This document shows positions 25,705-64,000 of a DNA stretch of 64,000 nt, one piece after another. The stretch is from Gemmatimonadaceae bacterium (GTDB taxonomy: Bacteria > Gemmatimonadota > Gemmatimonadetes > Gemmatimonadales > Gemmatimonadaceae), in contig JABAQJ010000002.1 of assembly GCA_019186945.1 (NCBI GenBank), forward strand, positions 1 through 64,000. The letters are read 5' to 3'. Under the pieces are notes generated by a model, which was not told where the DNA came from, searched no databases, and saw nothing but the letters and a program-made list of their open reading frames with translations. Positions within the stretch are counted from its first letter, which is position 1. The number at the start of each line of letters is the position of its first letter. The position numbers and the translations under genes were made by a program.

Positions 25705-27076
25705 AGGTACCGATGGACGACCCGGCGATTGGCAGCGTGCGCAGACGCGGCGGCGCGCGCACTTCGTCGACTCTGGCGACCTCGGTGGCAACGAAATCGA
25801 AATCCTCAACCACGTCATCGAGGCGTACGTCGAGGAAGCTGCCGGCACGCGCCGACGTCCTTACGAACGTGACGCCATCGACGTCCTCGGCCTGGACGGC
25901 GGTACGAGCCACGGCAATGCCGTCCGCGTCCGATGACCGGTCCACGAGCGCGCGCACAGTCGTCCCGATGGCGCGATCGTATCGATCCGCGGTAATCAGT
26001 CGCTGGACTTCCATCACTCGCGCCAGACGGTCACGCTTGACCTCCTCGGGAACATCGTCCGGCAAATCGAACGCGCGTGTGCCCTCTTGCGCAGAGTAAG
26101 TGAAGACGCCCACGCGATCGAGTTGGACATCCTCCAGGAACTCCAGCAACTGCAGCACGTCGTCTTCTGTCTCTCCGGGAAATCCGACGATGACAGTGGT
26201 CCTGATGGTGACATCCGGCAGGATGGAACGGATCGCGCGAATAGTCTGGCGCTGGCGCGCTTGCCGTTCGGGGCGCCGCATCCGCTCCAGAACCCGATCG
26301 CTCGCGTGCTGCATCGGGATGTCCAGATACCGGAGGATCCGGGGTTCGCGTGCCATCAGCTCCAACATTCGCTGGTGGAGCCCAGCGCTGTAGATGTAGA
26401 GGAGTCGGTACCATGGAACGCCGGTCTCCCGTAGCAGCGTTTCGAGCAACTCCGCCAGGCCGCGCCCATCGCGCACATCGCGGCCGTAGTGTGCCAGATC
26501 CTGGGCAACGAGGTTGACTTCACGCGCGCCCTGCGCCTCCAGCAGCTGGGCCTCCCTCACCAGGTCATCGATCGAGAAGGACCGATGCCTGCCTCGCATG
26601 AGCGGGATCGCGCAGAACGCGCAACCGTGGTCGCACCCTTCGCTGATCTTCAGATAGCGCAAGTGGGGCATGTCGCCGGCGTGCACACGCACACCCGGAT
26701 GAGCCAGCATTGGCGTCGCGTCCAGTAGTCCCCACTCGCGCAGCATCGGGATCAGGCGGTCGCCCTCGGACGCCCCCAGGAAGTGGTCGACCTCGGGCAA
26801 GGCATCGCGCAGCTCGTCCCTGTGTCGTTCCACCATGCAACCGAGCGCTACCACGGCCTGGCATTGCCCGGCATCCTTGTGACGACTCGCCTCCAGCAGC
26901 GTGTCGATCGATTCCTTCTTGGCTTCGTCGATGAATCCGCAGGTATTCACGAGAATGACGTTTGCGTCGTCGGCATCGCGAGTGAAGGTTGCGCCGTACG
27001 ATTCGAGCTGGGCGATGTACCGCTCGCTGTCGACAGTGTTCTTGTCGCAGCCTAACGTCACCATCGCGAATCGCAT
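25694..27076 (-). CDS. rimO: Ribosomal protein S12 (uS12) methylthiotransferase RimO
   Basis: 460 residues from an ATG. Radical-SAM methylthiotransferase adding a methylthio group to the Asp of S12. The N-terminal MTTase domain has LGCDKNTVDSE (Cys10), VNTCGFIDEAK and ALGCMVER, the three cysteines of the auxiliary Fe-S cluster. The radical SAM motif CDHGCAFCAIP (CxxxCxxC) is near 150. VGFPGETEDD and a C-terminal TRAM domain (about 385-445) follow. The N-terminal MVTLGCDKN, RYLDIPMQHASDRVL and CGFIDEAKKES separate it from MiaB. Its Leu9-Gly10 pair is coded by the GTTAGGC motif (27050-27056). Confidence 0.95.
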   Translation of the reverse strand: MRFAMVTLGCDKNTVDSERYIAQLESYGATFTRDADDANVILVNTCGFIDEAKKESIDTLLEASRHKDAGQCQAVVALGCMVERHRDELRDALPEVDHFLGASEGDRLIPMLREWGLLDATPMLAHPGVRVHAGDMPHLRYLKISEGCDHGCAFCAIPLMRGRHRSFSIDDLVREAQLLEAQGAREVNLVAQDLAHYGRDVRDGRGLAELLETLLRETGVPWYRLLYIYSAGLHQRMLELMAREPRILRYLDIPMQHASDRVLERMRRPERQARQRQTIRAIRSILPDVTIRTTVIVGFPGETEDDVLQLLEFLEDVQLDRVGVFTYSAQEGTRAFDLPDDVPEEVKRDRLARVMEVQRLITADRYDRAIGTTVRALVDRSSDADGIAVARTAVQAEDVDGVTFVRTSARAGSFLDVRLDDVVEDFDFVATEVARVDEVRAPPRLRTLPIAGSSIGTYGR

Positions 27077-33875: not shown

Positions 33876-35240
33876 TCAGCTTTCGCGAGACAGTCTGTAG
33901 CGATCGATCTTCTTGTAGAGATTGGATCGCGGCATGTCCAGCCCGCGCGCCGTCTCCGAAACATTCCAGTCGTACTCCCGCAGCTTCGCGAGCAGAAACG
34001 CCCGTTCGGCCGCAGCCTTGAACTCCTCGAACGTCCGACACTCGAGCAGCGCACCGAGCGACCAAGCATCCACTGGGCGCGGGGCCGTCAGGCGCTCCAC
34101 GTCAGCGACCGTGATACGCGGGCCCGACGCCAGGATCAGCAACCGCTCAATCGTATTCCGCAGCTCGCGCACGTTCCCGGGCCAGTCCAGCGCCGACAAG
34201 GCGTCCAGTGCGCGCTGATCGACCTGGCGCGAGGGCGCACCGTCCTGCGTCGACAGCACGTTCACGAAGTGCTGTGCCAGCAAGGGGATGTCCTCGCGAC
34301 GGTCACGCAATGCCGGCACATGCAGCGGCACGACGTTCAATCGGTAGTACAGATCCTCGCGAAAGCGACCCGCTTCGATCTCCTCCTCGATGTCCTTGTT
34401 TGTCGCCGAGAGCACGCGCACATCGACCTTGATGCGCTTGTTGCCTCCGATTCGTGTGACCTCTCCATCTTGTAGCACACGTAACACCTTGGCCTGCGCG
34501 GCCAGGCTCATGTCGCCGACCTCGTCGAGGAACAGCGTCCCCTGATCTGCCTGCTCGAACTTTCCGGCGCGGTCTGCGGTCGCGCCGGTGAACGATCCCT
34601 TGATGTGACCGAACAGCTCGCTCTCGATCAACTCCGACGGAATCGCGGCGCAGTTGACTTCCACGAGCGGTTTCGTCGCCCGTGAAGACAACCGATGGAT
34701 CGCCCGCGCCACCAGTTCCTTCCCAGTCCCGTTCTCCCCGGTGATGAGGACGCGAGCCGCCGACGCTCCAACCTTCTCTATCTTGTCCATCAGCGTGTGG
34801 ATCGCGTACGAGCGGCCCACTATCTCGTATCGCGACTCAATCGACTGGCGAAGGCGGGCGTTTTCCTCCTGCAGATCCATGTGCTGCAGAGTGTTGCGCA
34901 GCAGGACGAGAATGCGATCGGTGTCGAGTGGTTTCTCGAGGATGTCGTATGCGCCCAGGTGCGTCGCCTCGACCGCGGTCTGGATCGTCGCATGCCCGCT
35001 GATCATGACAACGGTTGCACCACCATCCAGCTGCTTCAGTCTACGCAGCGCCTCCATGCCATCCATGCCCGCCATCTTCACGTCGAGAAACACGAGATGG
35101 GGCCGGAACTTCTCGTAGGTTTCCAGGGCTTCGCTCCCACTGGACGCCGACTTCACCTCGTAGCCCTCGTACTCGAGCAACTGTCCCAGCGCTGCCCGCA
35201 CACCTTGTTCGTCGTCCACGACCAGGATGCGCCGGCTCAT
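33876..35240 (-). CDS. NtrC-family sigma-54-dependent response regulator
   Basis: 454 residues from ATG 35240, which overlaps the preceding stop (ATGA). Receiver domain (about 1-120) with [20 protein letters not shown], phospho-acceptor Asp in [14 protein letters not shown] and Lys in [12 protein letters not shown]+ domain (about 140-375) with Walker [15 protein letters not shown] and Walker [13 protein letters not shown]; the sigma-54 contact loop reads GSFTGA instead of GAFTGA. C-terminal Fis-type helix-turn-helix: [17 protein letters not shown] then [10 protein letters not shown]. It activates sigma-54 promoters. No cognate sensor is adjacent; a NtrY-like kinase lies 21 kb away (56359-60393). 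Confidence 0.93.
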
Positions 35241-35881
35241 GGCACGTTGCGATAGACGGTAATCCTGCCCCTGGCTACGCGGACATCGCCCACCGTGCGC
35301 GGCACCGGAAACGCGATTGCGCCCGACGAGGCGTTCGGCGTCTTCACTCCCTGGCCGACGGCCTGCAGCAGCGTCGGGATGCCGGCGGTGGGAATAGGCA
35401 ACTGTCCGATACGCGCAGACGTCACGTGCCACTGCGCCGTCCCTGGATCTGCGATACTGAGAGTTCCTCCCAGCTCAAACGTCTCGCGCCTGTTGGCGAA
35501 TCCGGAGAACGGACCGAGAACGTCCAGGCCCTTGATATCGTCGAGATCGATCGAGGCCCGAACACGGACTTGATCGCCGACAACCGCTGCTTCCGCCGAA
35601 TGCACGGACGTTGGTAGCGCTCCGCCGGCTCCCGACAGCAGGATGCCGGCGAACTGCGCTGCCGTCAGATTCACGAATACGGGGCCATTCTTCCGACCTA
35701 ACGACTCGAGCGCGGCGGTAGCCTCCTTTCCTCCTTCCGGCGTGACCGGCGCCCACGTGGCCGAACCCGATGCGCGATCCCCGAATACCAGCGGCATCCA
35801 GCGATCGCGGAGCAGCCAGGCCGCGATCGCGATAGCCAGCACGATGCCGAGACATCCGAGACGCCGGAGACATCCAAACAT
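35237..35881 (-). CDS. Uncharacterised membrane-anchored protein
   Basis: 214 residues from an ATG. A single N-terminal transmembrane helix (CLGIVLAIAIAAWLL) is followed by an exported domain of about 180 residues, mostly beta strands (VRVRASIDLDDIKGL, FELGGTLSIADPGTAQW, GRITVYRNV). I do not recognise the family. Its GTTAGGT at 35699-35705 is another Leu-Gly pair. It overlaps the NtrC-type regulator by 4 bases, so it is likely connected to that regulator or its signal. Confidence 0.6.
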   Translation of the reverse strand: MFGCLRRLGCLGIVLAIAIAAWLLRDRWMPLVFGDRASGSATWAPVTPEGGKEATAALESLGRKNGPVFVNLTAAQFAGILLSGAGGALPTSVHSAEAAVVGDQVRVRASIDLDDIKGLDVLGPFSGFANRRETFELGGTLSIADPGTAQWHVTSARIGQLPIPTAGIPTLLQAVGQGVKTPNASSGAIAFPVPRTVGDVRVARGRITVYRNVP

Positions 35882-35909
35882 GTCGAGCGACCTTGGTGAG
35901 GAGTCGTGT

Positions 35910-36476
35910 TCAGCAGTGGTCCGCGCCCATGTGCGCCTGCGTGACGAGAGTATAAGCTCGCCCGCCGCGTTCCTGCGCGCTTTCCATCAGTTCTACCGAG
36001 CGCACGGGAAGTTCGCCGACATGGCCGACGCTCCGTGCCCAACCTGCAAGAACCGCCAGCTCCGCGTCCCGCAGGTCGCGATCCAGTCGACCGACGGTGA
36101 GGTGCGGCACGTACGGTCGCGCCTCGACAGGGATCCCCAGTCTTCCCAGGGCACGATCGAGTTCCGATGCGATCTTGACGATGAGCGGCTGTTGCACCCC
36201 CAGCCATACGACTCTGGGACGACGAAAGTTCGGAAATACTCCGGCACCCCCGACGGTACACGACAGTCGCGGCGACACGGCGGCCACGGAATGCAGCGCG
36301 ACACCGAGTTCCTGCGCCCGCTCGGCCGTGCAGTCCCCAACGAACTTCAGCGTAAGGTGGAATCGCTCGGCTGGGACCCAGCGGACCGATGGCAGCCGCT
36401 CCCGCGCAGGTGCGACTATCGTATCGACGAGGTCGCGCAACCCGTCAGGCAGGTTGATCGCAACGAAGAGACGCAT
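35910..36476 (-). CDS. thpR: RNA 2',3'-cyclic phosphodiesterase (2H family)
   Basis: 188 residues from ATG 36476. The two catalytic HxT motifs are HLTLKFVGD and HLTVGRLDRD, with MRLFVAINLPDGLRDLVD at the N-terminus as in ThpR/LigT. It hydrolyses 2',3'-cyclic phosphates or ligates tRNA half molecules in vitro; the biological substrate is unclear. It overlaps the small upstream gene by 32 bases. Confidence 0.93.
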   Translation of the reverse strand: MRLFVAINLPDGLRDLVDTIVAPARERLPSVRWVPAERFHLTLKFVGDCTAERAQELGVALHSVAAVSPRLSCTVGGAGVFPNFRRPRVVWLGVQQPLIVKIASELDRALGRLGIPVEARPYVPHLTVGRLDRDLRDAELAVLAGWARSVGHVGELPVRSVELMESAQERGGRAYTLVTQAHMGADHC

Positions 36477-36675
36477 GATCCGCGTCGATGATTTCGACGG
36501 AGACGTGTGTGAACCCGACGGAGCGGGCAATCTCTACCACCTCCTGGCGCACGCCAGAATCGTGAAACGCGGCGTCGCGTCCTCGGGGGATCAGAATGAG
36601 CTGCCGATCTCGAATCTCGATTTCGACGTCGAGGCTCAATTCGACCAGGCGCTCGCGAAGCGAGGCAATGGGCAT
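36445..36675 (-). CDS. Small uncharacterised protein between larE and thpR
   Basis: 76 residues from an ATG 2 bases after the larE stop. Strands such as LDVEIEIRDRQLILI and HVSVEIIDADHASL alternate with a helix (EVVEIARSVGFT), suggesting a compact alpha/beta fold. It is likely real because the frame, start spacing and overlap (32 bases with thpR) fit an operon. No family is recognised. It could be a partner of LarE. Confidence 0.55.
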   Translation of the reverse strand: MPIASLRERLVELSLDVEIEIRDRQLILIPRGRDAAFHDSGVRQEVVEIARSVGFTHVSVEIIDADHASLRCDQPA

Positions 36676-36677
36676 CG

Positions 36678-37586
36678 TTATGCTCTGACTCCGCCCAACA
36701 CGTTGAGCGAACCGGAACGGAACCCCCAGAGGTCGATCGCCACTCGCGTGTAACCGGCGCCGATGGCGGCCCGTCGAATCGCCTGTGCGCGTTCCGGTAT
36801 CAGCCAGCGTTCGAGTTCTGTCGAGCCCAGCTCGATGCGCGCCAGGTCGCCATGATGGCGAACGCGAAGATCCCCTCCGACACCCAACTCACGAATGGCC
36901 CGCTCGGCACGTTCGACCTGCGCCAACCGCTCTGCCGTCACGGCCGTGCCGTACGGAAGCCGGGACGCAAGACAGGGCGATGACGGCGCCGACCACGTGG
37001 GAATCCCACGCTGGGCGGACAATGCCCGGATATCAGTCTTGGAGAAACCGAGTTCCGCGAGCGGACTGCGAACCTCGCGCTCCCGCGCTGCCTGCGTCCC
37101 TGGTCGATGGCCCGCCGTGTCGTCCGCATTCGTGCCATCGCAGACGACCGCGAGTCCTCGTTCCTTCGCGACCGGCACGAGGACGCTCCAGAGTTCCTGT
37201 TTGCAGAAGTAGCAGCGATTGGCCGGATTGGCCACGTAACGCGGATCCGATGACTCGTGCGTGTCCAGCTCCAACACGGGGATTCCGAACTGGTCGGCAA
37301 TCGATCGTGCCCGCTGCCACTGCTCCAATGGGTACGACGCCGATCGTCCGATCACGGCCAGCACGCGACTCCGACCGAGCGTGCTCAACGCAAGGCAGGC
37401 GAGATACGTCGAGTCGACGCCGCCACTGAAACCGATGAGCACGGATCCAGCGTTGCGAAGCCAGTCGACCAGCGCCGATTCGCGGATTCGCGCTTCAGCG
37501 GAAGGAACCGCACTGGTGACGCCCTGCGAATCGACCTCAGCGTTGGCGCCGGCTTGCTGCGTGCCGATAGATGCCAGCGTGATCAT
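36678..37586 (-). CDS. larE: ATP-dependent sacrificial sulfur transferase LarE
   Basis: 302 residues from an ATG. PP-loop motif IGFSGGVDSTYLA near 55-67 binds ATP. Cysteines include CYFCK and the conserved SPCLASRLPYG motif, whose Cys supplies sulfur in Lactobacillus LarE. LarE converts pyridinium-3,5-biscarboxylic mononucleotide to the thio-acid in biosynthesis of the nickel-pincer cofactor of lactate racemase. The partners LarB and LarC are not in this window, so either they are elsewhere or this is a solo LarE with another sulfur-transfer role. Confidence 0.9.
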   Translation of the reverse strand: MITLASIGTQQAGANAEVDSQGVTSAVPSAEARIRESALVDWLRNAGSVLIGFSGGVDSTYLACLALSTLGRSRVLAVIGRSASYPLEQWQRARSIADQFGIPVLELDTHESSDPRYVANPANRCYFCKQELWSVLVPVAKERGLAVVCDGTNADDTAGHRPGTQAAREREVRSPLAELGFSKTDIRALSAQRGIPTWSAPSSPCLASRLPYGTAVTAERLAQVERAERAIRELGVGGDLRVRHHGDLARIELGSTELERWLIPERAQAIRRAAIGAGYTRVAIDLWGFRSGSLNVLGGVRA

Positions 37587-37597
37587 GCCGAGAGAAT

Positions 37598-39142
37598 CTA
37601 GCCGTCGGGTGCAGCGGCTGGCAGTCGATCGACAATACGAAACTGGAGCGCCTCACCGACGTGATGTGCCAGCACGGCGTCGTCACCATCCAGGTCGGCG
37701 ATGGTACGCGCTACCTTCAGGGCGCGATGGTAGCCGCGCGCGGAGAGATCGAGCCGCGTGGCGGCCGTCGACAGCAGTGTTCGCGCCTTGACGTCGATGG
37801 CCGTGTGCGAATCGAGCCACCGCCCGGCAACGTGCGCGTTGAGCGTGACGGTTCGGAGTCGCGCGAAACGCACATACTGGCGAGCCCGAGCCAGCGCCAC
37901 ACGCGCGCGCACGGCGGCGGAACGCTCGGCTGGTGGCGCCAAACCGAGGAGGCGGAGATCCACAGGCGGCACCTGGACACTCAGGTCCAGCCGATCCGCG
38001 AGCGGGCCTGAAATGCGAGAACGATGCCGTTCGAGATCCAGCGTCGAACACCGGCAGAGGTAGCCAGGCATGCCGGACTTGCCGCACGGACACGGATTCA
38101 TTGCGCCCACGAGCGTGAACTGGGCAGGGAAAACGACCGCGCACGCAGCACGTGCGATTATCACCCGACCTTCCTCGAGCGGTTGGCGAAGTGCGTCCAG
38201 GACGTTACGCGGGATCTCCTGGAGTTCGTCGAGAAACAGCACGCCGTGGTGTGCCAGGCTTACTTCGCCGGGACGCGGAGTGCTTCCACCTCCGATCAAC
38301 GCCGCCGCACTTAGCGAATGATGCGGTGCCCGGAACGGTCTTGTGGACGACGGTACGACGCCAGGCTCGACGAGTCCAGCAACAGAGTGTATGGCGACGA
38401 CATCGAGCGCTTCGGGTTCCGAGAGTGGAGGCAGGATGGTAGGCAACCTTCGCGCGAGCATCGTCTTACCCGTTCCCGGTGCTCCCACCATGAGCAGTGG
38501 GTGGCCACCAGCGGCAGCGATCTCGAGTGCTCGGCGCGCTGCATGTTGGCCGACGACGTCCGACAGATCCACCGGGTCGCGCTCCGACTCGACGAGCGCC
38601 TTGCCTTCGGCGGAGATCGTCAGGCTGTTCGTTCGTAGTTCGCTCGCCAGCTCCGCCAAGGTTGCCGGCGCGCTGAGCGGCAGTCCCGAGACCAGCGCGG
38701 CTTCCGGCACGTTTCCGCGAGGCAGGACGAGGGCGCGCACGCGCAATCCGCCTCGTGCCAGTCTGCGTGCGACCGATAGAACACCTCGGACGGGTCGGAT
38801 GGCGCCGTCGAGTCCCAGTTCGCCAAGGGCGGCGAGGCCTTCGATCGCCGCAAGCGGAAGCTGATTCGTTCCGACGAGCACACCAAGCGCAATCGGCAGG
38901 TCGAACGCCGTCCCTTCTTTCCGCACATCGGCCGGAGCGAGGTTGACCGTGATACGTCGCGACGGAATGGCAAATCCCGCGTTGGCCAGCGCCGCGCCCA
39001 CGCGCTCCCGGCTTTCCCGCACGGCGCTCGCCGCCAACCCGACGATCGTCCACTGGGGCAGGCCGCTCGCAACGTCGACCTCCACAGTCACATCATACGC
39101 ATCGATGCCGAGCACCGCGGCCGAACGCACGGAGGCAAGCAT
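37598..39142 (-). CDS. comM: YifB/ComM-family magnesium-chelatase-like AAA ATPase
   Basis: 514 residues from ATG 39142. The N-terminal domain (about 1-180) has LGIDAYDVTVEVDVASGLP and RITVNLAPADVRKEG; the AAA+ core shows MVGAPGTGKTMLARRLPTI and LFLDELQEI, with CPCGKSGMPGYLCRC supplying a cysteine cluster; the C-terminal Mg-chelatase domain ends with RGYHRALKVARTIADL. ComM is a hexameric helicase that drives branch migration during natural transformation. Presence suggests, but does not prove, competence or a recombination role. Confidence 0.93.
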   Translation of the reverse strand: MLASVRSAAVLGIDAYDVTVEVDVASGLPQWTIVGLAASAVRESRERVGAALANAGFAIPSRRITVNLAPADVRKEGTAFDLPIALGVLVGTNQLPLAAIEGLAALGELGLDGAIRPVRGVLSVARRLARGGLRVRALVLPRGNVPEAALVSGLPLSAPATLAELASELRTNSLTISAEGKALVESERDPVDLSDVVGQHAARRALEIAAAGGHPLLMVGAPGTGKTMLARRLPTILPPLSEPEALDVVAIHSVAGLVEPGVVPSSTRPFRAPHHSLSAAALIGGGSTPRPGEVSLAHHGVLFLDELQEIPRNVLDALRQPLEEGRVIIARAACAVVFPAQFTLVGAMNPCPCGKSGMPGYLCRCSTLDLERHRSRISGPLADRLDLSVQVPPVDLRLLGLAPPAERSAAVRARVALARARQYVRFARLRTVTLNAHVAGRWLDSHTAIDVKARTLLSTAATRLDLSARGYHRALKVARTIADLDGDDAVLAHHVGEALQFRIVDRLPAAAPDG

Positions 39143-54563: not shown

Positions 54564-56345
54564 TCAACCGCGGTCGACGGCGAGCGGCGACCGCGGTCCC
54601 AGCAGACGCTCCCACCAGCTTTCTCCACGGCGGTCTTCCCTGTGTAGTGCCGACAGGACATCCCGCCATGCGGCGTTCATCTCGGCGGCATCGCGATAGC
54701 GCTCGCCGGAATCCGCCGTCAGGCCTCGGCGCAACCACGCACTGAGCGGCTCTGGAAACGGCGGAAGCTCAAGCCCACCAGCGAGCTGCTGCGCCAGAAT
54801 CGCCCGCACATCGCTACCGCTGAACGGCGGCTCGCCGGTCAGTACGAAAAACACGATGGCCGCCATGGCGAAGCAATCGACGGCCGCGGTTTGCCGTTCA
54901 CCCAGCAGCTGTTCGGGCGCCGCGAACGCCGGGGTCCCAGTGGCGCCGGCCGCCTCATCCTCCCCGCGCGCGATCCCGAAGTCGGTCACACGCCAGCGGC
55001 GGTAGCGATCGATGAGGATGTTCTCCGGTTTCAGGTCCCGGTGCACGATGCCGTGCGCATGCGCCGCCGCCAGCCCGTCGAGCACATTGGCCACCGAGCC
55101 GACTATCTCGTCCAGCTGGCGCGGGCCCGCTCCAGCGACAAGGTCCGCTACCGAGCCGCCTTCCGCCAGCTCCATCGTGTACCACGACACGCCACCGCGA
55201 GTGTCGAAATCGAAAATCGGAATGATCGCCGGGTGCGCGAGCTGTGCCGCCAGCCGCGCCTCGCGCCGGAACCGGGCCACGGCCAGCTCATCCTGGGCAA
55301 CGGTCGGATGCAGCACCTTGAGCGCCACCTCGCGTTCCAGCGACAGGTCGCGCACGCGCCAGACAGAGCCGAACGTGCCGCGACCGAGGAAGCCCAGCAC
55401 CTCATAGTCGTCGCCGACGGCCCATCGCAAGCGTGCCTCTTCCGAGTTGATCGCCGGCATCTCCGGCCCACTCACCATCACGTTGCGCGACCCGCTGGCG
55501 CGTTCCATCGCCCGCACCATCGCCGAAATCGTCGGAAACCGCTCGGCCGGATCGTCGCGCAGCCCGACGTCCAGTACCGATGCCAGCGCCCGCGGCGTTT
55601 CCGGACGCACGAGCTGCACCGGCGGCACATCCCTGTCCGGCGGCAATTCTCCCGTCAGCGCGAAGAAACAGCTCGCCGCCAGCTGCCACTGATCGGTCAT
55701 TGGCGTCGGCTGCCACGAACGCTGACGCAGTTCGGGGGGAACGGGCGTCCACTTCGCGTCCGGTCTGATGCCTGTCGGCACGTCACTCATCGGCACGGCC
55801 CACTGCCAGCCCAACATCCATATACGCCACGTCGGACTCGCTGAAACGGTCTCCGGCGACACCCCACCGTGTACCGTCCCTCCATCGTGCAGATAGGCCA
55901 GCGTGGAACCGACGGCGCGAAGCACCCGAAGCACGTTAGGCAGCGCCTCGGGTCCGGTTCGGCGGACTCGCGCCCCTATTGTCTCCGCCGTTATCCAGCG
56001 TCGCAGGTACCCAGGTCCGCGTCGCGAGTCGGGATGAAGGCTCCAGTAGTGATAGGTCGTCGGAATGGACGGGTGGTTCCGGTGCGCCAGGTGCCTGGCC
56101 TCCGCGGCCAGCCAATCGGTATGCCGGCTGTCCGGTGCCGATACCAGTGCCAGCGATCGCCCCAGCGCGTCTACAACCTCCTGTGAGTGCCGGAACTCCA
56201 TGGAGACACCCTCGCTCCCCCAGTTCCAGTCGGGAGGCAGGCGCCAAGCCGTCAAGTGTTCGGGCAACTCATACGTTACCCGGTTCAGGCGATCGGGACT
56301 CGACGTGCGCACGGCGCGCATGCCTTCGAAAGGAGATGCCGGCAT
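54564..56345 (-). CDS. Tandem pseudokinase-Ser/Thr protein kinase
   Basis: 593 residues from ATG 56345, 13 bases downstream of the NtrY-like gene stop. The N-terminal half (about 30-285) has the outline of a Hanks-type kinase but lacks catalytic motifs: VHGGVSPETV replaces HRDLKPEN and WMLGWQWA replaces DFG. The C-terminal half (about 313-575) is a complete kinase: GRGTFGSVWRVRD, VALKVLH, HRDLKPENILI and VTDFGIA, followed by PAFAAPEQLLGERQT as activation segment. No transmembrane helix or PASTA/sensor domain is seen. It is presumably cotranscribed with the sensor kinase upstream. Confidence 0.92.
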   Translation of the reverse strand: MPASPFEGMRAVRTSSPDRLNRVTYELPEHLTAWRLPPDWNWGSEGVSMEFRHSQEVVDALGRSLALVSAPDSRHTDWLAAEARHLAHRNHPSIPTTYHYWSLHPDSRRGPGYLRRWITAETIGARVRRTGPEALPNVLRVLRAVGSTLAYLHDGGTVHGGVSPETVSASPTWRIWMLGWQWAVPMSDVPTGIRPDAKWTPVPPELRQRSWQPTPMTDQWQLAASCFFALTGELPPDRDVPPVQLVRPETPRALASVLDVGLRDDPAERFPTISAMVRAMERASGSRNVMVSGPEMPAINSEEARLRWAVGDDYEVLGFLGRGTFGSVWRVRDLSLEREVALKVLHPTVAQDELAVARFRREARLAAQLAHPAIIPIFDFDTRGGVSWYTMELAEGGSVADLVAGAGPRQLDEIVGSVANVLDGLAAAHAHGIVHRDLKPENILIDRYRRWRVTDFGIARGEDEAAGATGTPAFAAPEQLLGERQTAAVDCFAMAAIVFFVLTGEPPFSGSDVRAILAQQLAGGLELPPFPEPLSAWLRRGLTADSGERYRDAAEMNAAWRDVLSALHREDRRGESWWERLLGPRSPLAVDRG

Positions 56346-56358
56346 GCCGAGAAAACTG

Positions 56359-59300
56359 CTACGCTCGCGGCGCCGCGACCAGCGCAAGCCGAACGGTGGT
56401 TCCCTCTCCGACGGTGCTCTGCACGCTCATCTCCCCGCCCCAGGAACGAACAAGCCCGCGGCAGATGGCCAGCCCGAGTCCGCTGCCGCTCGTCCGCGTG
56501 GAAAAATGGGGCTCGAAGATCCTCGGAAGGACTTCGGCAGGAATACCGACGCCGTCGTCACGAATGTCCACATGGGTTCGCTCTCCGCCCCCGAAAAGCT
56601 GAACCTCGACCGACGTTGCCTGAGCCAGCCGCGCGTTCTCGAACACGTTGAGGAAGACTTCACGAAGCTCGTCCGGCGTTGCCAGCACCGCATGGGGGCC
56701 GTCAAACCCGGTGAGGCGCCAGTCGATACCGCCCTCACCCATCCGCTCCAATTCCACCACGTCGTTCACCACGGCGGTCAGATCGACGGGATATGCGGGC
56801 AGTCGCTCCGCCGGTGCCATGCCGTAGTGGCTGAACGCGCGGGCGATTTCGTCGAGTCGGTCGATTTCCGCGAGTATTCGGCTCACGTTCTGCTCGAAGA
56901 TCCGCTCGAAGTCGATTCGCCGATCGAGTCGTGCCCGGCGCAGATGCTGCACTCCCAGTCGAATCGGCGTCAACGGGTTCTTGATCTCATGCGCAACCTG
57001 ACGGGCCATTTCCCCCCAGGCCAGCACGCGCTGCGCACGCGCCACTTCAGTCACGTCGTCCAGCGTCAGCACGGCTCCGCCAGTAGCCTTCGTCAGGCGC
57101 GTCAAGCTGCATCTCAGATGGCGTCCGCGCAGCTCGGCGTCGAAAGCAGCATATTCCTGATCGGACGCAAGGAAGGCACGGATCCTGGCGGCCAGCGTCG
57201 CCGGTGCGAGCGTATCCACGGAGCCGCCGATCGCCAGCGCTCGACCCAGCAACTGTTCGGCGCGCGGATTCACGACCATCACCCGACCGTCGCCGCCTGT
57301 AGCGATCACGCCCGAGGCTACGTTCCTCAACACGGTTTCCGTCCGTCGCTGGGCGGCCTCGAGCGCTTCGCGGCTCGCTGCGAGGTCGTCGTCCATGCGA
57401 CGGAACGCAGAGAAGACCGGTCCGAACTCCGCCGGTTGCCCGGACGTGATCACCGGGTGGCGCGCGCCCCGCGCAATGGCGAGCGCTGCCTCTCGGAGCG
57501 CACCGATCGGACGCTCGAGTTCTCCTGCCGCCAAGCCGCTCAACCAAAGCGCAGCCAATGCTCCCACCGCGACCGAAAACAGCACGAGCACGCCCAGATC
57601 CCGGCGCTGCCGATCCAGTTCTACTTCATTGATACGTGCCGGGGCCGCGAGCACCGCGCCGCGCGCCTCGCCGAACCCAAGGATGGCGCGGTAACCGAAC
57701 AGCCTTGGGCGCTGTCCCACGGCAACCCGTTCGCTGGCGTCGACTTCATCCTCGCTCATGAAAACGCGCGCGACTGACGGCGGCAGATAGCGGCCGACTG
57801 GTGACAGACGATCGTACAGCGGATCGCTGGTCGCTCGCAGCGACCCCGATGTGTACAGCAGCAACGGCGTCGACAGTCGGCCGCTCTCGTACGCCAGCGC
57901 CAGGGGATCGCCCGTGGCAACGATCGTTCGCAGCGTTTCGCGGATCAACAGCTCGCGCGACTGCCGGTCGCTGGATTGGAGCCGCAGGTACGACCACCAT
58001 GCAAAGACTATCGCGGGAAGAACGAAAAAGCTGAACAGGGTGAGCGTGAGCCTGGCGCGGTAGCTCCGGCCAAAGGCAGCTGCGCGCCGCCGCAGCCACC
58101 GGCCGAGGCCACCGTCAGCTGCGGCACTGAGCGTCCACAGCGCACTCAGGATGATGAGATCGAGCAGCACGATCAATGCCCCCCGTGGAACAAGGGCATC
58201 GAGCCCGCGAAGATCGACCTCGAGATGTACCCGCGACGGTCGTGTGGCCGCGGCCACGCTCGCGTCACCATGTAACCCGGTTCCTTCCCGTTGCCACCCG
58301 GGCCGTGATCCGAGCGCGGAGCGTTCGTCGAGCGTTGTAAGAGTGAGCTTGTATGGCGGCTCCGTCTCGCTGTCGCCGCCCAGCCCGAGCAGCGACATGT
58401 ATGGATCGTCCGGGATGAGCAGCGTCCGGGGAGCGACGACCACCGTCGTGACGCCGTCGTCGTCGTGGGGAACGGCGAGCGTCAGCTGTATCCCGTACGT
58501 GGTGGAGTCCTGGCGGATCAACGGCCGGCCGGCTGCCCGCGCATCGGTCACCAGTGTGCGCTCCTTCTCCCGCTCGTGCTCGAAGTTTGCGATGCGAAGC
58601 GAAGCATACGGCTGCGTTGCGCCCGGCAGCCAGCTGGAAAGTTCCACGGGATACTCGGCCGAGGCGAGATCCGACCGAACGTAGCGTTGCAGAAGATCTT
58701 CGCGCTCGATCGGCGCTGTCCGAATCGTCAGCTCGCGCGAAAGCCGTTCCATCAGCTGCAACGCCGTCGAATCGACGCGCGAGAGTCGTTCTATGTCCCG
58801 CTCGGCGAGTTCTACCCGCATCCTGGCGGCGGCTCCCCACACAAGCGTGGTGGCGCCGCACGCCGACACGATCGCCGCCGCCACGACCAATGCCCGCGTC
58901 CGCCGCGATAGCGCCAGCGCGCCCATCGCCAGCACCCATGGCACAGGGTACCAACCTGGCCACTGGCCGGGCGCCTGCCACAGTGGCGGCGCGAACAGAG
59001 CCGTCAGCGCCGCGATGGCGGGACCGACCCACGGCGACAGTCCGCGACGCGCACCCAGTGCAATTCGACCGGCGCTGGCCCCCGCCAGCAACAACGCGGA
59101 GCCCACCAGGAACAGCGCCACCTGCCACGCCAGCCAGAGCGTGGTCGTCACGCCACGCGGCGGCGGCGCGATGCCGCGCGCCAGATCGCGCAACAGGAAC
59201 GGGCCAAGCGAGGCCACCGCCAACACCACCACGATCGCCATCCATCGACGAGCCAGACTCAGACGGGATCGCTGAACGGCAAAGAACCCCACAAGCACCA

Positions 59301-60393
59301 AGCCACTTGTCAGGCTCAGTGCACCGACGCTCGCAGTTAGCGGGCCTCCAAAACTTGCGAAGTACACGCTGGCGTCGAAGAGCCTGGTCACATTGGAAAA
59401 AGACGGTAGCGGCAGGATCGCAATCGTCGCCACCACCGCCAGCAGCGATAGCAGCCGCTGACTCAGAGCCGCCGGTCGGCGCCACGCCGTCACCAGAAAA
59501 CAGACGAAGACTGCTACCAGTGCGATCGCCGCCACCAGCGCGAACCTCGCACGGATCCGCAGGCGTGCCTCCCCAGTCGAGAGGGCGAGCGGCCGAACAC
59601 TCACAGTCGACTGCCCCGCCACCGGCACTGCCACCCAGCCGTCAGTGTCGCGCCCGCCAGGAACGACATCGAAGTCCCGAATCCCGACACGCCCCGCAAC
59701 ATCTCGATCCAGCGCACGACCCAACGCGTTGCCTGGCGCCTCGGCGTGAAGCAACTCCACGGCGACCGCGCGCCGGCCCGAACGCTCGGCAACTGCGTAG
59801 AGCGTTGCATAAAACGTTGTGAAATCCACGCCCCCGCGACCGGGCAGCTGTTCGCTCGGACTGCGCATCACTCCAGCCCACGCCGTCGCCCGATTGTCTT
59901 CCAGGAGGACGACACCGCGCTCCCCTCCCCGCCTGCTGCCGGCCACCAGCGATCGCAATTCGGCGAACCGCCCGGTCGAGCCGGCAGGGACCGCCACCGC
60001 GCGGTCCGCAATCGACTGCAGATCACGCATGCTCCTCGACACCGCATCGGTCAGCTCGGCGACCGCGTCGGCCCGAAGGGCTCTGTCGAAGCCAACCGGA
60101 TCACGATCGAACGCCTCCTCGCGCGTCTGGCTAACAGATGCCAGTACGAGGAACACCGTCTGACCCGCCAGAAATGCCCAGCGCCAGGTTCTGCTCGGTT
60201 GCCGGCCTTCCACACCCCAGTGCCCCAGCCACGTCATCCCCAGCATGAGCGCTGTAGCGACAACGACGGCGGCTAAGTATGGTATCGACGGCGATCGGAG
60301 CCACCAGCCATCGCCAAACAGGGTCAGTGCCGCCAGCGTCAGCCACGTTGCCGACCGAGACCAGCGCCCTGAGGCCCCCTGGATAACTCGCAT
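56359..60393 (-). CDS. Large multi-pass sensor histidine kinase, NtrY-like
   Basis: 1344 residues from ATG 60393. The N-terminal region (about 15-550) has two transmembrane clusters with a large extracytoplasmic loop (about 90-260), and a second extracytoplasmic loop (about 540-750) precedes more helices near 750-800 and a further pair near 960. A HAMP-like linker, a PAS-like domain (about 1060-1130, TVLRNVASGVIATGGDGRVM), H-box MARQVAHEIKNPLTPIR and the HATPase: LNVFENARLAQA (N box), DDGVGIPAEVLPRIF (G1), GSGLGLAICRGLV (G2). The H-box type is that of NtrY/NtrB-class kinases, which pair with NtrC-class regulators. The start ATG overlaps that of the divergent creatininase-family gene. Confidence 0.9.
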   Translation of the reverse strand: MRVIQGASGRWSRSATWLTLAALTLFGDGWWLRSPSIPYLAAVVVATALMLGMTWLGHWGVEGRQPSRTWRWAFLAGQTVFLVLASVSQTREEAFDRDPVGFDRALRADAVAELTDAVSRSMRDLQSIADRAVAVPAGSTGRFAELRSLVAGSRRGGERGVVLLEDNRATAWAGVMRSPSEQLPGRGGVDFTTFYATLYAVAERSGRRAVAVELLHAEAPGNALGRALDRDVAGRVGIRDFDVVPGGRDTDGWVAVPVAGQSTVSVRPLALSTGEARLRIRARFALVAAIALVAVFVCFLVTAWRRPAALSQRLLSLLAVVATIAILPLPSFSNVTRLFDASVYFASFGGPLTASVGALSLTSGLVLVGFFAVQRSRLSLARRWMAIVVVLAVASLGPFLLRDLARGIAPPPRGVTTTLWLAWQVALFLVGSALLLAGASAGRIALGARRGLSPWVGPAIAALTALFAPPLWQAPGQWPGWYPVPWVLAMGALALSRRTRALVVAAAIVSACGATTLVWGAAARMRVELAERDIERLSRVDSTALQLMERLSRELTIRTAPIEREDLLQRYVRSDLASAEYPVELSSWLPGATQPYASLRIANFEHEREKERTLVTDARAAGRPLIRQDSTTYGIQLTLAVPHDDDGVTTVVVAPRTLLIPDDPYMSLLGLGGDSETEPPYKLTLTTLDERSALGSRPGWQREGTGLHGDASVAAATRPSRVHLEVDLRGLDALVPRGALIVLLDLIILSALWTLSAAADGGLGRWLRRRAAAFGRSYRARLTLTLFSFFVLPAIVFAWWSYLRLQSSDRQSRELLIRETLRTIVATGDPLALAYESGRLSTPLLLYTSGSLRATSDPLYDRLSPVGRYLPPSVARVFMSEDEVDASERVAVGQRPRLFGYRAILGFGEARGAVLAAPARINEVELDRQRRDLGVLVLFSVAVGALAALWLSGLAAGELERPIGALREAALAIARGARHPVITSGQPAEFGPVFSAFRRMDDDLAASREALEAAQRRTETVLRNVASGVIATGGDGRVMVVNPRAEQLLGRALAIGGSVDTLAPATLAARIRAFLASDQEYAAFDAELRGRHLRCSLTRLTKATGGAVLTLDDVTEVARAQRVLAWGEMARQVAHEIKNPLTPIRLGVQHLRRARLDRRIDFERIFEQNVSRILAEIDRLDEIARAFSHYGMAPAERLPAYPVDLTAVVNDVVELERMGEGGIDWRLTGFDGPHAVLATPDELREVFLNVFENARLAQATSVEVQLFGGGERTHVDIRDDGVGIPAEVLPRIFEPHFSTRTSGSGLGLAICRGLVRSWGGEMSVQSTVGEGTTVRLALVAAPRA

Positions 60394-61138
60394 GCCCAGC
60401 TCACCGACCGACACGCGAACCCCACTGCCACGTCGGCTGAAGGATCTCGTTCCCGAAGAAGTCCGGGAGTGTCTCGATCGCGATCCCAGGCTCATCGTCC
60501 CCGTGGGAACGTGCGAACAGCACGGACCTCACCTTCCGCTCGGATGCGATACGACAATCGTCGAACTGCTGGCGGACGATCTGTCCGCTGAGTTCGGCGT
60601 GCTGCGTGCCCCAACAGTCGAGTACGGCGTGAATACCGAGACCGACCGCGATGCCCCAGGCAATGCTTCGCTGCGCCGCCGGACGCTGCTTCGCCTCCTC
60701 AACGACCTGATCGACTCCTGGGAGGCCGACGGCGTACAGGAGTTCATCCTGCTCACGGCACACGGCCATGTCGGACATCAGGAGGCGCTGGCGACCGTGG
60801 TCACGAAGGGAGCACGAGTGCGCGTCGTCGACATCTTCTCCGTTCGCATCGATGACCTGCTGACCTCCCAGAAGGAAGCGCTCCACGGCGACGAAGCGGA
60901 CACGTCGCTCATGCTCTATCTTGCCCCTCACCTCGTCCGCATGGAACTGGCTGAGGATTATACGATTGCGTCTGCGGCCGAGCGACGTTTCAGACGGAAA
61001 TCGCTCCGCATACCCAGCACCACGTCCGGTTCGATCGGGAGCCCCTCTGTGGCCTCGGCCGAAAAGGGGTGCGCGATATACGCGCGCATTCGAGACAAGG
61101 TCCGCGAGCGGATCTTCCTCACGCCAGCTGTCGACTGA
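60392..61138 (+). CDS. Creatininase-family amidohydrolase
   Basis: 248 residues from ATG 60392; the longer frame runs antisense through the kinase. The motif VPVGTCEQHGPHLPLGCDTT (here at about 34-53) holds the metal-binding Glu and His of creatininase, with AHGHVGHQEAL and HGDEADTSLML supplying further ligands. Family members hydrolyse creatinine, or act in riboflavin/F420 and mycofactocin pathways. The substrate is unknown. Its ATG shares the palindrome CATG with the start codon of the divergent histidine kinase gene, leaving no intergenic promoter region. Confidence 0.9.
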   Translation: MPSSPTDTRTPLPRRLKDLVPEEVRECLDRDPRLIVPVGTCEQHGPHLPLGCDTTIVELLADDLSAEFGVLRAPTVEYGVNTETDRDAPGNASLRRRTLLRLLNDLIDSWEADGVQEFILLTAHGHVGHQEALATVVTKGARVRVVDIFSVRIDDLLTSQKEALHGDEADTSLMLYLAPHLVRMELAEDYTIASAAERRFRRKSLRIPSTTSGSIGSPSVASAEKGCAIYARIRDKVRERIFLTPAVD

Positions 61139-61223
61139 ACGGCGGTCGGCCAGCTCGGCGTCATTCGCCCGGTACTACGGAAGCAGGGTGAACGTCGCCC
61201 GAGAAACCGTGTAGCTTTCGATC

Positions 61224-61922
61224 ATGCGAACGCAGCCCCTCGTCCGTCGCCCCCTTTTTCTAGCCGTCTTCGTGGCGATCCCTTTGGCTTCACAGGCTCA
61301 GGGAGCAAAGACGATCGACGAAGGGAGTTTCACCATCACGGTGAACGGCCAGCGCGTTGGCCGGGAAGACTTCAGCATCGCTGGAACGCCGACTGGCCGT
61401 GGCACGGAATACATCGCCAAGGCGACGATCGTCATGGGCGATCGCCGGCTCATGCCCGCCATGCAGGCGGATTCCAGCGGCGCGCCCATGACGTACCAGA
61501 TTCAGACTCGCAGTGCATCGGATCAGGAGTGGTGGAGCGGTACGATCTCGAGGGGCCGGGTGGACGCGCGCATGCGAACGGCGAAGGGTGAAGCCCGGAA
61601 GGAATACATCGTAACGGATGGAGCGATCATCCTCGACGACGACGTTTTTCACCAGTACTTCTTCGTCGTTTCGCGCGTGCGGTCGGGGAGCATTCCGGTG
61701 GTCATCCCCCGCCGGAACACACAGCTAACGCTCGCAATTGCCTCCGCCGGACCGGACCGCGTCACGATCGCGGGGAAAGAACTCGACGCGACGCATTACG
61801 TACTGACCGAACCATCGGGTACGACGCGCGACCTGTGGGTGGACGGGCGCGGTCTGGTACTCAAGGTCGCCATTCCATCGCGGGGTGTCGTGGCGCTCCG
61901 TGACGACCCGCCGGCGGCGTAG
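61224..61922 (+). CDS. Uncharacterised secreted protein
   Basis: 232 residues from an ATG. A signal peptide (RRPLFLAVFVAIPLASQAQ, cleavage near 25) precedes a beta-rich domain with repeated strands: GSFTITVNGQRVGREDFSI, TEYIAKATIVMGDRRLM, GTISRGRVDARM and DLWVDGRGLVLKVAIPSRG. It resembles periplasmic proteins of unknown role found near efflux genes. A strong terminator follows 10 bases after the stop. Confidence 0.75.
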   Translation: MRTQPLVRRPLFLAVFVAIPLASQAQGAKTIDEGSFTITVNGQRVGREDFSIAGTPTGRGTEYIAKATIVMGDRRLMPAMQADSSGAPMTYQIQTRSASDQEWWSGTISRGRVDARMRTAKGEARKEYIVTDGAIILDDDVFHQYFFVVSRVRSGSIPVVIPRRNTQLTLAIASAGPDRVTIAGKELDATHYVLTEPSGTTRDLWVDGRGLVLKVAIPSRGVVALRDDPPAA

Positions 61923-61932
61923 TGTGCCACGC

Positions 61933-61962
61933 ACGCTCCGCCGAAACGCGGAGCGTTTTTTT
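61933..61962 (+). terminator. Rho-independent terminator
   Basis: ACGCTCCGC (61933-61941), loop CGAAAC, GCGGAGCGT (61948-61956), followed by a run of seven T (61956-61962). A classical terminator after the secreted-protein gene, separating it from the TolC operon. Confidence 0.9.
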
Positions 61963-62041
61963 CACGTGGGGCGCGATGAAACTCCTCGCTCGCGCGTCCC
62001 GTACGAGTCGCAGCTAACGCCAACGCCTGACAATTCATCCC

Positions 62042-63523
62042 ATGCGTATTCAAGGTTTACTCGCGGCGCTCGTCGTGGCCACAGCTTCGGCCGCGGCGCA
62101 GCCGCCGACGACGCAAGCCACAGGGCCCGTGCTCACGCTCGACGAAGCTGTCGCGCTCGCCGTACGCAATAATCCCCAGCACCTGCAGACGATGTCCGCC
62201 CGGTCTCGTGCCGGCGCCGCCCTGCGGAGCGCCTACGGGTCCATGCTTCCGTCGATCTCGACGGATTTCGGTACTCAGTATCGTGAAGGACGAAAGCAGC
62301 TCTTTGCCGGCCAGGCGTTCGGCTCCGAGTCCGACATCCTGTCGTCGTCGGCGAGCCTGAGCGTGAGCGCACAGCTCAGCATGAACTCCTTCATGGGCCC
62401 GAGGCAATCGCGAGCCAACCTCGACGCCGCCGAAGCGGATATCACGAGTTCCGCCTCCACGCTCCGCTCGACGGTCGTCCAGCAGTACCTCACGGCGCTT
62501 CAGGCGCAGGCTCGCGCGAATCTCCAGGACACGTTGCTCGTCGGCACACAGGCACAGCTTGATCTGGCGCGGGCGCGCCAGCAGGTAGGCGCCGGCACGA
62601 CACTCGACGTTCGCCGGGCAGAAGTGGCCGTCGGGCAGCAACGGGTAGCCGTCCTGCGCGAACGAAACAACGTGGAGATCGAGCTGTTGAAGCTCTTCCA
62701 GCAGATCGGCGTCGCCCAACCCGCTGGTGTCCGGTTGACCACATCGTTCCCGGTCGATGAGCCGAAGCTCCAGCTGTCCGAACTGCTCGACATGGCTCGA
62801 GCCGGAAATCCGGCACTCCTGGCGCTGCGCTCTCGCGAACGGTCGGCCGATGTCGGCGTATCGCGGGCGCGCTCGCAGTGGACGCCCACGCTATCGCTCC
62901 AGACTGGCATTGGCGGTTTTTCGCAGCAGTTGCGAGACCTGTCGGGAACGATCAACTCGGCGCGATCGCAGGCCGTCGCGCAACGCGGATCCTGCCTGAC
63001 AACCGACTCGATTCGCGTTGGCGCCGGCCTGCCATCGATTTTCGGGTTCTGCAACCAGATCGCCTTTTCGCCGGCCGACGAGGCAGCGATCCGCAGCGCG
63101 AACTCGCAGTTCCCGTTCAGCATGAGCCGGAATCCCATCACCTTTGGCGCGCAGCTGTCGTTCGACGTGTTCAACGGGTTCCAGCGGGAACAGGCCATCC
63201 AGGAAGCGTCGGCGGCACGGAACGACGCGCGCTACAACGTGCGGGCTCAGGAACTGCGGCTGACCGCAGACGTGACCGCGGCGTATTTGAATCTGACGAC
63301 GGCGTATCAGACGGTGAGGCTGCAGGAACAGAACCAGATCGCGGCACGCGAGGCGCTGACCTTGGCCGAGGAGCGCTTCCGCGTGGGTGCGAATACCTTT
63401 GTCGATGTCACGCAGTCGAGGAGCGAGTACGAGCGGGCCGGTACGGACCTGATCAACGCGATTTACGATTTCCACAGGGCGTTCGCCGTGCTCGAGAGTG
63501 CGGTCGGGCGTTCCCTTCGTTAG
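62042..63523 (+). CDS. TolC-family outer-membrane efflux protein
   Basis: 493 residues from an ATG with a signal peptide (LLAALVVATASAAAQ). Two repeats of the TolC fold: helical hairpins with LDEAVALAVRNNPQHLQTM near the N-terminus and the second coiled region with NARYNVRAQELRLTAD, RVGANTFVDVTQSRSEYERA. Beta-barrel strands lie near GAALRSAYGSMLPSISTDFG. The trimer forms the outer-membrane exit duct of tripartite efflux or type I secretion. It is followed 15 bases later by the adaptor gene. Confidence 0.92.
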   Translation: MRIQGLLAALVVATASAAAQPPTTQATGPVLTLDEAVALAVRNNPQHLQTMSARSRAGAALRSAYGSMLPSISTDFGTQYREGRKQLFAGQAFGSESDILSSSASLSVSAQLSMNSFMGPRQSRANLDAAEADITSSASTLRSTVVQQYLTALQAQARANLQDTLLVGTQAQLDLARARQQVGAGTTLDVRRAEVAVGQQRVAVLRERNNVEIELLKLFQQIGVAQPAGVRLTTSFPVDEPKLQLSELLDMARAGNPALLALRSRERSADVGVSRARSQWTPTLSLQTGIGGFSQQLRDLSGTINSARSQAVAQRGSCLTTDSIRVGAGLPSIFGFCNQIAFSPADEAAIRSANSQFPFSMSRNPITFGAQLSFDVFNGFQREQAIQEASAARNDARYNVRAQELRLTADVTAAYLNLTTAYQTVRLQEQNQIAAREALTLAEERFRVGANTFVDVTQSRSEYERAGTDLINAIYDFHRAFAVLESAVGRSLR

Positions 63524-63538
63524 CCGAGGATTTCATCG

Positions 63539-64000
63539 ATGAGCAAGCGCATGAAGTGGTCGCTGTTAGGCGTTGCGGTGCTCGGCGTGGCAGCGTACGC
63601 CGCGACGACCGCGTTCAATCGCGGCAACAAGGCGACGGAGGTTCGGATGGAGAACGTGCAGGCTCGGGACTTGGTTGCCTCGGTCACGGCCAGCGGTCAG
63701 GTGGAACCTCGGACGAAAGTGGACGTCGCTGCCGATATCAGCGGCCGCATCGTGCGGCTTGCCGTGAAGGAAGGCCAGGTTGTCAAGCGCGGCGACTTCC
63801 TGCTGCAGATTGACCCGGCGCAGTACGAGGCTGCGGTTCAGCGTGCGGAAGCGGCGCTCTCGTCGGCGAAGGCACAGGCCGCGCAGAGCCGCGCGAACCT
63901 CCTTCAGGCGGAGCGAAACTACGGTCGCTCGTCGGAAATGAAGAAAGCGAACGCTTCGCTCGTTTCCGACGAGCAGATGGAGCAACTCAAGACGCAGGTC
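63539..64000 (+). CDS. Efflux periplasmic adaptor (HlyD/RND/MacA type), 3' truncated by window end
   Basis: 154 residues are visible from ATG 63539. An N-terminal membrane anchor (MKWSLLGVAVLGVAAYAAT) precedes the barrel-sandwich start VTASGQVEPRTKVDVAADIS and the lipoyl-like VKEGQVVKRGDFLLQIDP, then an alpha-hairpin (about 100-154) with AAVQRAEAALSSAKAQAAQ. It should link the TolC channel to an inner-membrane ABC or RND pump lying beyond the window. GTTAGGC at 63565-63571 encodes Leu-Gly in the anchor. Confidence 0.9.
   Translation, partial: MSKRMKWSLLGVAVLGVAAYAATTAFNRGNKATEVRMENVQARDLVASVTASGQVEPRTKVDVAADISGRIVRLAVKEGQVVKRGDFLLQIDPAQYEAAVQRAEAALSSAKAQAAQSRANLLQAERNYGRSSEMKKANASLVSDEQMEQLKTQV

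Follow-up and report, generated by a model that had tools for sequence, protein, structure and literature searches.

A gene for a large sensor histidine kinase (HK) is followed directly by a gene in which a kinase fold that has lost its catalytic residues is joined to a Ser/Thr kinase that retains them. The question raised by this locus is whether the two products act as a signalling pair and what the dead fold contributes to it. The two genes are situated as follows in the window, which is the whole stretch of 64,000 nucleotides of DNA that was analysed.

56359 to 60393, minus strand: sensor histidine kinase (HK), 1344 residues; the reading frame is intact, with alternative upstream starts up to 60495
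54564 to 56345, minus strand: tandem pseudokinase-Ser/Thr kinase (the fusion), 593 residues, with no apparent transmembrane segment

The stop codon of the HK gene (TAG) occupies 56359-56361 and the ATG of the fusion lies at 56345, 13 bases further along the minus strand. The fusion could also start at TTG 56387 or ATG 56321, and the alternative starts make no substantive change to either gene. A sequence-only reading of this DNA had described an HK gene followed 13 bases later on the same strand by a gene for a 593-residue protein, and had asked for a search for the same neighbourhood in related genomes; both genes are real as described and their synteny is conserved. Of 91 orthologous loci, 65 have the HK gene directly upstream of the fusion in the same orientation; the median gap is 15 bp, and in 13 of the loci the two genes overlap by 4 bp. 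The set of loci counts some species twice, and contig ends truncate several of its members. Across these loci the gene that follows the fusion comes from 16 different families. Since the adjacency of HK is maintained while the downstream gene varies, the assignment of HK and fusion to a two-gene operon is well supported. The reading that we favour is that the two genes are transcriptionally, and often translationally, coupled and encode a signalling pair in which the dead fold regulates the live kinase and which responds to envelope or export stress. The chances of this composite reading are, in our judgement, evenly poised.

The domains of the fusion are arranged as follows.

55491 to 56282, minus strand: pseudokinase domain of the N-terminal half (residues about 22-285), with beta3 Lys replaced by Val, HRD by HGG and DFG by LGW, a degenerate Gly loop, and alphaC Glu82 retained
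54642 to 55433, minus strand: active Hanks-type kinase domain of the C-terminal half (residues about 305-568), with K343, E362, HRD435-437, N442 and DFG455-457

The loss of catalytic residues in the N-terminal half is a property of the whole family. The site of the beta3 Lys (position 68) is V or I in all the 89 readable rows of the 91 orthologues, and the alphaC Glu is retained in the same number (89/89). The site of the HRD Asp (position 161) is A, G, S or C in 86/91; the remaining 5/91 have Asp at this site, and none of these has the beta3 Lys or the DFG Asp. The DFG motif is lost throughout, with L, I, M or S in place of its Asp (position 178) and W in place of its Gly (position 180) in 91/91 orthologues. 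Pfam recognises the C-terminal half only and gives no match to the N-terminal half alone. The relationship of the latter to kinases is detected by a phmmer search of the PDB sequences with the single sequence, which matches PknA (E=2.3e-9), and by a profile of 12 orthologous N-terminal halves, which aligns most of the domain with PknA (E=1.8e-19). It is also linked by hhalign to its own C-terminal half with a probability of 97%. An AlphaFold2 model of the fusion (53-row alignment, mean pLDDT 88.5) has the full kinase order of strands and helices in both halves, with a pTM of 0.60 that makes the relative placement of the two halves uncertain. When the whole model is searched with Foldseek, the matches are kinases, PknB and PknA among them, and each alignment spans roughly a single domain.

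In the C-terminal half K343, E362, D437, N442, D455 and G457 are each kept in 90-91 of the 91 orthologues, and PF00069 is matched over residues 314-520 (8e-42). With all its catalytic residues in place, this half is classified by its sequence as an active Hanks-type Ser/Thr kinase. The only hydrophobic segment of the fusion is a core helix of this kinase (residues 486-504). The N-terminal half is, by its residues and its predicted fold, a pseudokinase, in which Lys, HRD Asp and DFG Asp are all three replaced in the protein of the window. The description of the protein as an inactive kinase fold joined to an active Ser/Thr kinase has thus held, both in the residues (HGG for HRD, LGW for DFG, Val for the beta3 Lys) and in the modelling proposed with it, where the N-terminal half gave a complete kinase fold.

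The absence of catalytic residues could also mean that the N-terminal half is a functionless duplicate in decay. The median dN/dS is 0.082 for the N-terminal half and 0.067 for the C-terminal half, as estimated by NG86 over close pairs that are not independent of each other, and strongly conserved motifs specific to the family, such as RRGPGYLRRWI and LPPxWxWG, are found in the N-terminal half. Decay is refuted by the dN/dS of 0.08, by retention of the domain throughout the order and by the invariance of the family motifs, and we regard it as practically untenable. The substitution pattern indicates that the pseudokinase half is under strong purifying selection.

Orthologues of the fusion share 56-67% identity across the Gemmatimonadaceae, and the fusion is therefore not a chance arrangement. 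Full-length matches to a profile of the tandem have been identified in about 80 of the 87 listed Gemmatimonadaceae genomes and in 48 of 58 from two further families of the order; these counts are approximate, and fragments at contig ends were counted by E-value. Elsewhere in the phylum, in a search of 249 of its genomes, the tandem profile gave no full-length match and only scores of the size expected of the kinase half. A scan for exact peptides in 84,980 species, which reaches close relatives only, finds relatives of the tandem in Gemmatimonadota only; tandems may also occur in other phyla. In the sister families the N-terminal half is degraded differently, with Lys replaced by Arg, HRD by VRR and DFG by DLR, and by analogy to the DYD family of pseudokinases this form, which keeps the DFG Asp, might still bind nucleotide. 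The Gemmatimonadaceae type and the sister-family type each form one clade in a midpoint-rooted tree (support 100/100), and few changes on this tree suffice to explain the HK-adjacent state. Judged from the sequences, the pseudokinase-kinase fusion is old, constrained and order-wide.

A second, long-branch paralogue of the fusion, about 47% identical, is encoded in some Gemmatimonadaceae (L129:5083-6984 in genome G025; also genome G113).

FHA domains read phosphothreonine. A protein with FHA-FHA-trypsin organisation is encoded next to the fusion gene in several sister-family genomes (L127:8916-11009; also L093, L095 and L128).

Bacterial pseudokinase families described before, namely ActPs1-3, GLW, CP1, DYD and DLHK (PMC12599244), have likewise lost catalytic motifs from a Hanks fold in a conserved manner. 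The losses differ from those found here, which are K to V, HRD to HGA or HGG and DFG to LGW in the Gemmatimonadaceae, and K to R, VRR and DLR in the sister families. The motifs of the N-terminal half do not fit three of these families. GLW pseudokinases have GLW in place of HRD and a C-terminal transmembrane segment, whereas this half has HG[AG] at the HRD site, LGW at the DFG site and no such segment. DYD pseudokinases have Arg for Lys, no alphaC Glu and a DYD motif; here Lys is replaced by Val or Ile and the alphaC Glu is retained. CP1 members carry a fused COG3899 ATPase domain that is absent from the 593-residue fusion. The DLHK family is marked by three arginines conserved at the nucleotide site. 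Matches to the PADLOC PD-T4-6 models have been rejected as a defence assignment, these being generic Ser/Thr-kinase models. The C-terminal half shares all the catalytic motifs of the PknB/PknA family of Hanks kinases, whose members are among its best structural matches; unlike them the fusion lacks transmembrane and PASTA domains and has a pseudokinase at its N-terminus. The text of the 2025 review on such families (PMC12599244) makes no mention of Gemmatimonadota, of tandems or of fusions. In the literature searched, which covered few subscription journals, we have found neither a bacterial fusion of a pseudokinase with an active kinase nor a study of this HK or this fusion.

The HK is comprised of two halves.

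57529 to 60393, minus strand: sensor half, about 955 residues, with three alpha/beta domains outside the cytoplasm (residues about 99-270, 542-727 and 807-920) and some 10 hydrophobic segments
56380 to 57513, minus strand: catalytic half; HAMP (weak), PAS (below the Pfam cut-off), HisKA and HATPase_c

Its H-box is VAHEIKNPLTPIR (HEIKNPLTPI), and H-box, N-box, G1 and G2 boxes are all found, each kept by 88-89 of the 91 rows of the HK family. Going by these boxes, the protein is a functional sensor histidine kinase. The sensor half, taken as 949 residues, has no match in Pfam or among the PDB sequences. Its AlphaFold2 model is confident (pLDDT 91.7, pTM 0.89) and opens with two helices, after which the first of the three extracytoplasmic alpha/beta domains is separated from the other two by a membrane block of several helices. 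From the predicted topology the three domains are read as Cache/PAS-like. The label NtrY-like given in the sequence-only reading fits the catalytic half, which shares the HAMP-PAS-HisKA-HATPase layout and the HEIKNPLTPI H-box of NtrY/NtrB-type kinases, and fails for the rest of the protein. NtrY_N (PF19312) is absent from the HK and from the whole genome in a search whose control does match in Caulobacter, the sensor half is much larger with its three extracytoplasmic domains, and no NtrX-type sigma-54 regulator is adjacent, so that the HK has been rejected as NtrY proper. In several lineages (L007, L017, L033 and others) the match to the HK is broken from about residue 1011 to about residue 1116 of the query, which suggests that the PAS domain has been lost or replaced there.

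A candidate target of the pair is encoded on the opposite side of the HK gene.

60392 to 64000, plus strand: divergent operon with a creatininase-like gene (60392-61138), DUF6134 (61224-61922), a TolC-like OEP (62042-63523) and a HlyD/MacA-like gene (from 63539 on)

The operon runs past the window (G000:C1 64001-70875, L146), with genes for an ABC ATPase and for three or more MacB-type permeases in a row. HK is divergent to this operon of creatininase, DUF6134, TolC, HlyD/MacA, ABC ATPase and MacB genes in the Gemmatimonadaceae. TolC, HlyD and ABC genes adjoin HK in the sister family also, and the HK-efflux neighbourhood is therefore probably older than the pairing of HK with the fusion. Among the local genes, this MacAB-TolC-like efflux operon would be the likeliest target of control. 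The HK and creatininase genes may start at two ATGs of one palindromic GCATGC (window 60391-60394); their 5' ends would then overlap, and the promoters would fall inside the opposite genes. Scans for sigma-70 and sigma-54 promoters gave nothing above chance.

No response regulator gene is adjacent to HK. The nearest receiver domain lies at a distance of about 21 kb, is the sole one within about 70 kb and belongs to the following gene.

33876 to 35240, minus strand: orphan NtrC-family sigma-54 response regulator, REC-sigma54-HTH, intact; candidate HK partner only

It is possible, though we consider it unlikely, that HK and this regulator form a sigma-54 pathway in which the Ser/Thr kinase is a modulator. 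Neither of the two has another partner adjacent, RpoN is encoded in the genome, and in relatives with both genes on one contig the regulator gene always lies 5-73 kb downstream in the same orientation. A MiaB-like control gene (window 25694-27064) is however equally colinear with HK, so that the linkage reflects general synteny and carries no information on pairing. Conserved linkage has accordingly been rejected as evidence for the pairing, and the connection to the distant NtrC-like regulator drawn in the sequence-only reading was not borne out. Against the pairing it also counts that 3/7 of the NtrC-type regulators of the genome lack an adjacent HisKA kinase, and that no sigma-54 site was found near the HK and fusion genes, or above chance anywhere in the window.

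Directly upstream of the orphan regulator gene are genes for a ComM-like protein, a NAD-synthase-like protein and a 214-residue unknown protein (window 33876-39142, minus strand), in an order that is kept in several relatives.

The two genes of the pair are separable. All three genomes of genus g30 (94-99% complete) encode the fusion without HK, and in genome G029 the fusion is directly beside the creatininase gene, HK being cleanly gone from between them. Conversely, HK is found without the fusion in all four genomes of genus g7 and in genome G033. Genomes G020 and G031 have both genes on different contigs with different neighbours, and in other families of the order the two genes are apart. 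Because g30 keeps the fusion alone, g7 keeps HK alone and the genes are unlinked in G020 and G031, the pair is a favoured association and not an obligate system. Co-evolution of HK and fusion beyond that expected from phylogeny gave no signal, the distances of the fusion correlating with those of TolC as well as with those of HK. A rival reading is an operon of convenience, in which two envelope-related genes are co-expressed and serve separate pathways with no shared substrates. The occurrence of each gene without the other, the unlinked fusions of the sister families, G020 and G031, and the lack of specific co-evolution are all in its favour. Their tight adjacency nevertheless survives much downstream rearrangement, and one rearranged clade too, in which HK and fusion are convergent, keeps them at most about 2 kb apart; we hold convenience to be a rather doubtful explanation. 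The earlier proposal of two phosphorylation types in one pathway, which would be His-Asp and Ser/Thr, is plausible at most, given that either gene can occur without the other, and a single obligatory pathway is not supported.

On the favoured reading of a signalling pair, the HK would sense envelope or export stress and the pair would respond. HK may phosphorylate a response regulator whose gene lies elsewhere; the orphan NtrC is no more than a possible candidate. The Ser/Thr kinase could phosphorylate HK, its regulator or other envelope targets, and the two kinds of phosphorylation would thereby be tuned together. Ser/Thr kinases that phosphorylate HKs or regulators include PknL-NarS, IreK-CroS and PrkC-WalR (PMC12189002). 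In Myxococcus the Ser/Thr kinase PktA5 is thought to share a pathway with the EspA histidine kinase system (PMC4320627); EspA is a hybrid HK, unlike that of the window. As each gene survives alone in some genera, the coupling would be advantageous and not obligatory.

The dead N-terminal fold would serve as regulatory domain of the live kinase, a position usually filled by PASTA or sensor domains. It may hold or release the C-terminal kinase by contact between the domains, as JH2 does for JH1 in JAKs, where this pseudokinase restrains the kinase (PMC5770812), and the Gemmatimonadaceae type would probably do so without binding ATP. In JAK/TYK2, as in the fusion, a single chain carries a pseudokinase ahead of an active kinase; JAK/TYK2 are tyrosine kinases with FERM-SH2, and the likeness is one of architecture, with no common tandem ancestry claimed. 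Alternatively the pseudokinase half could be no allosteric switch and instead a scaffold or docking platform that recruits substrates, perhaps HK, to the live kinase. The bacterial pseudokinases MviN and EssB/YukC act as scaffolds (PMC12599244), and the strongly conserved family motifs of the N-terminal half also speak for this role. The same motifs could however form the contact between the two halves, and control within the molecule is favoured by the covalent linkage of the pseudokinase to a live kinase that is its homologue; we treat the scaffold as a tentative option with some real weight. In a further variant, which appears improbable, the cytoplasmic part of HK would contact the pseudokinase half and so gate the attached Ser/Thr kinase, a direct relay with a JAK-like pseudokinase as receiver; HK would then not work through a response regulator alone.

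Bacterial pseudokinases are largely unstudied, and a constrained tandem retained throughout an order offers a soluble two-domain test case for the control of a live kinase by a dead fold. Its operonic union with HK in one family, together with the natural loss of either partner, makes phosphorylation cross-talk testable by comparison. The hosts of the HK-fusion operon are Gemmatimonadaceae of soil and freshwater.
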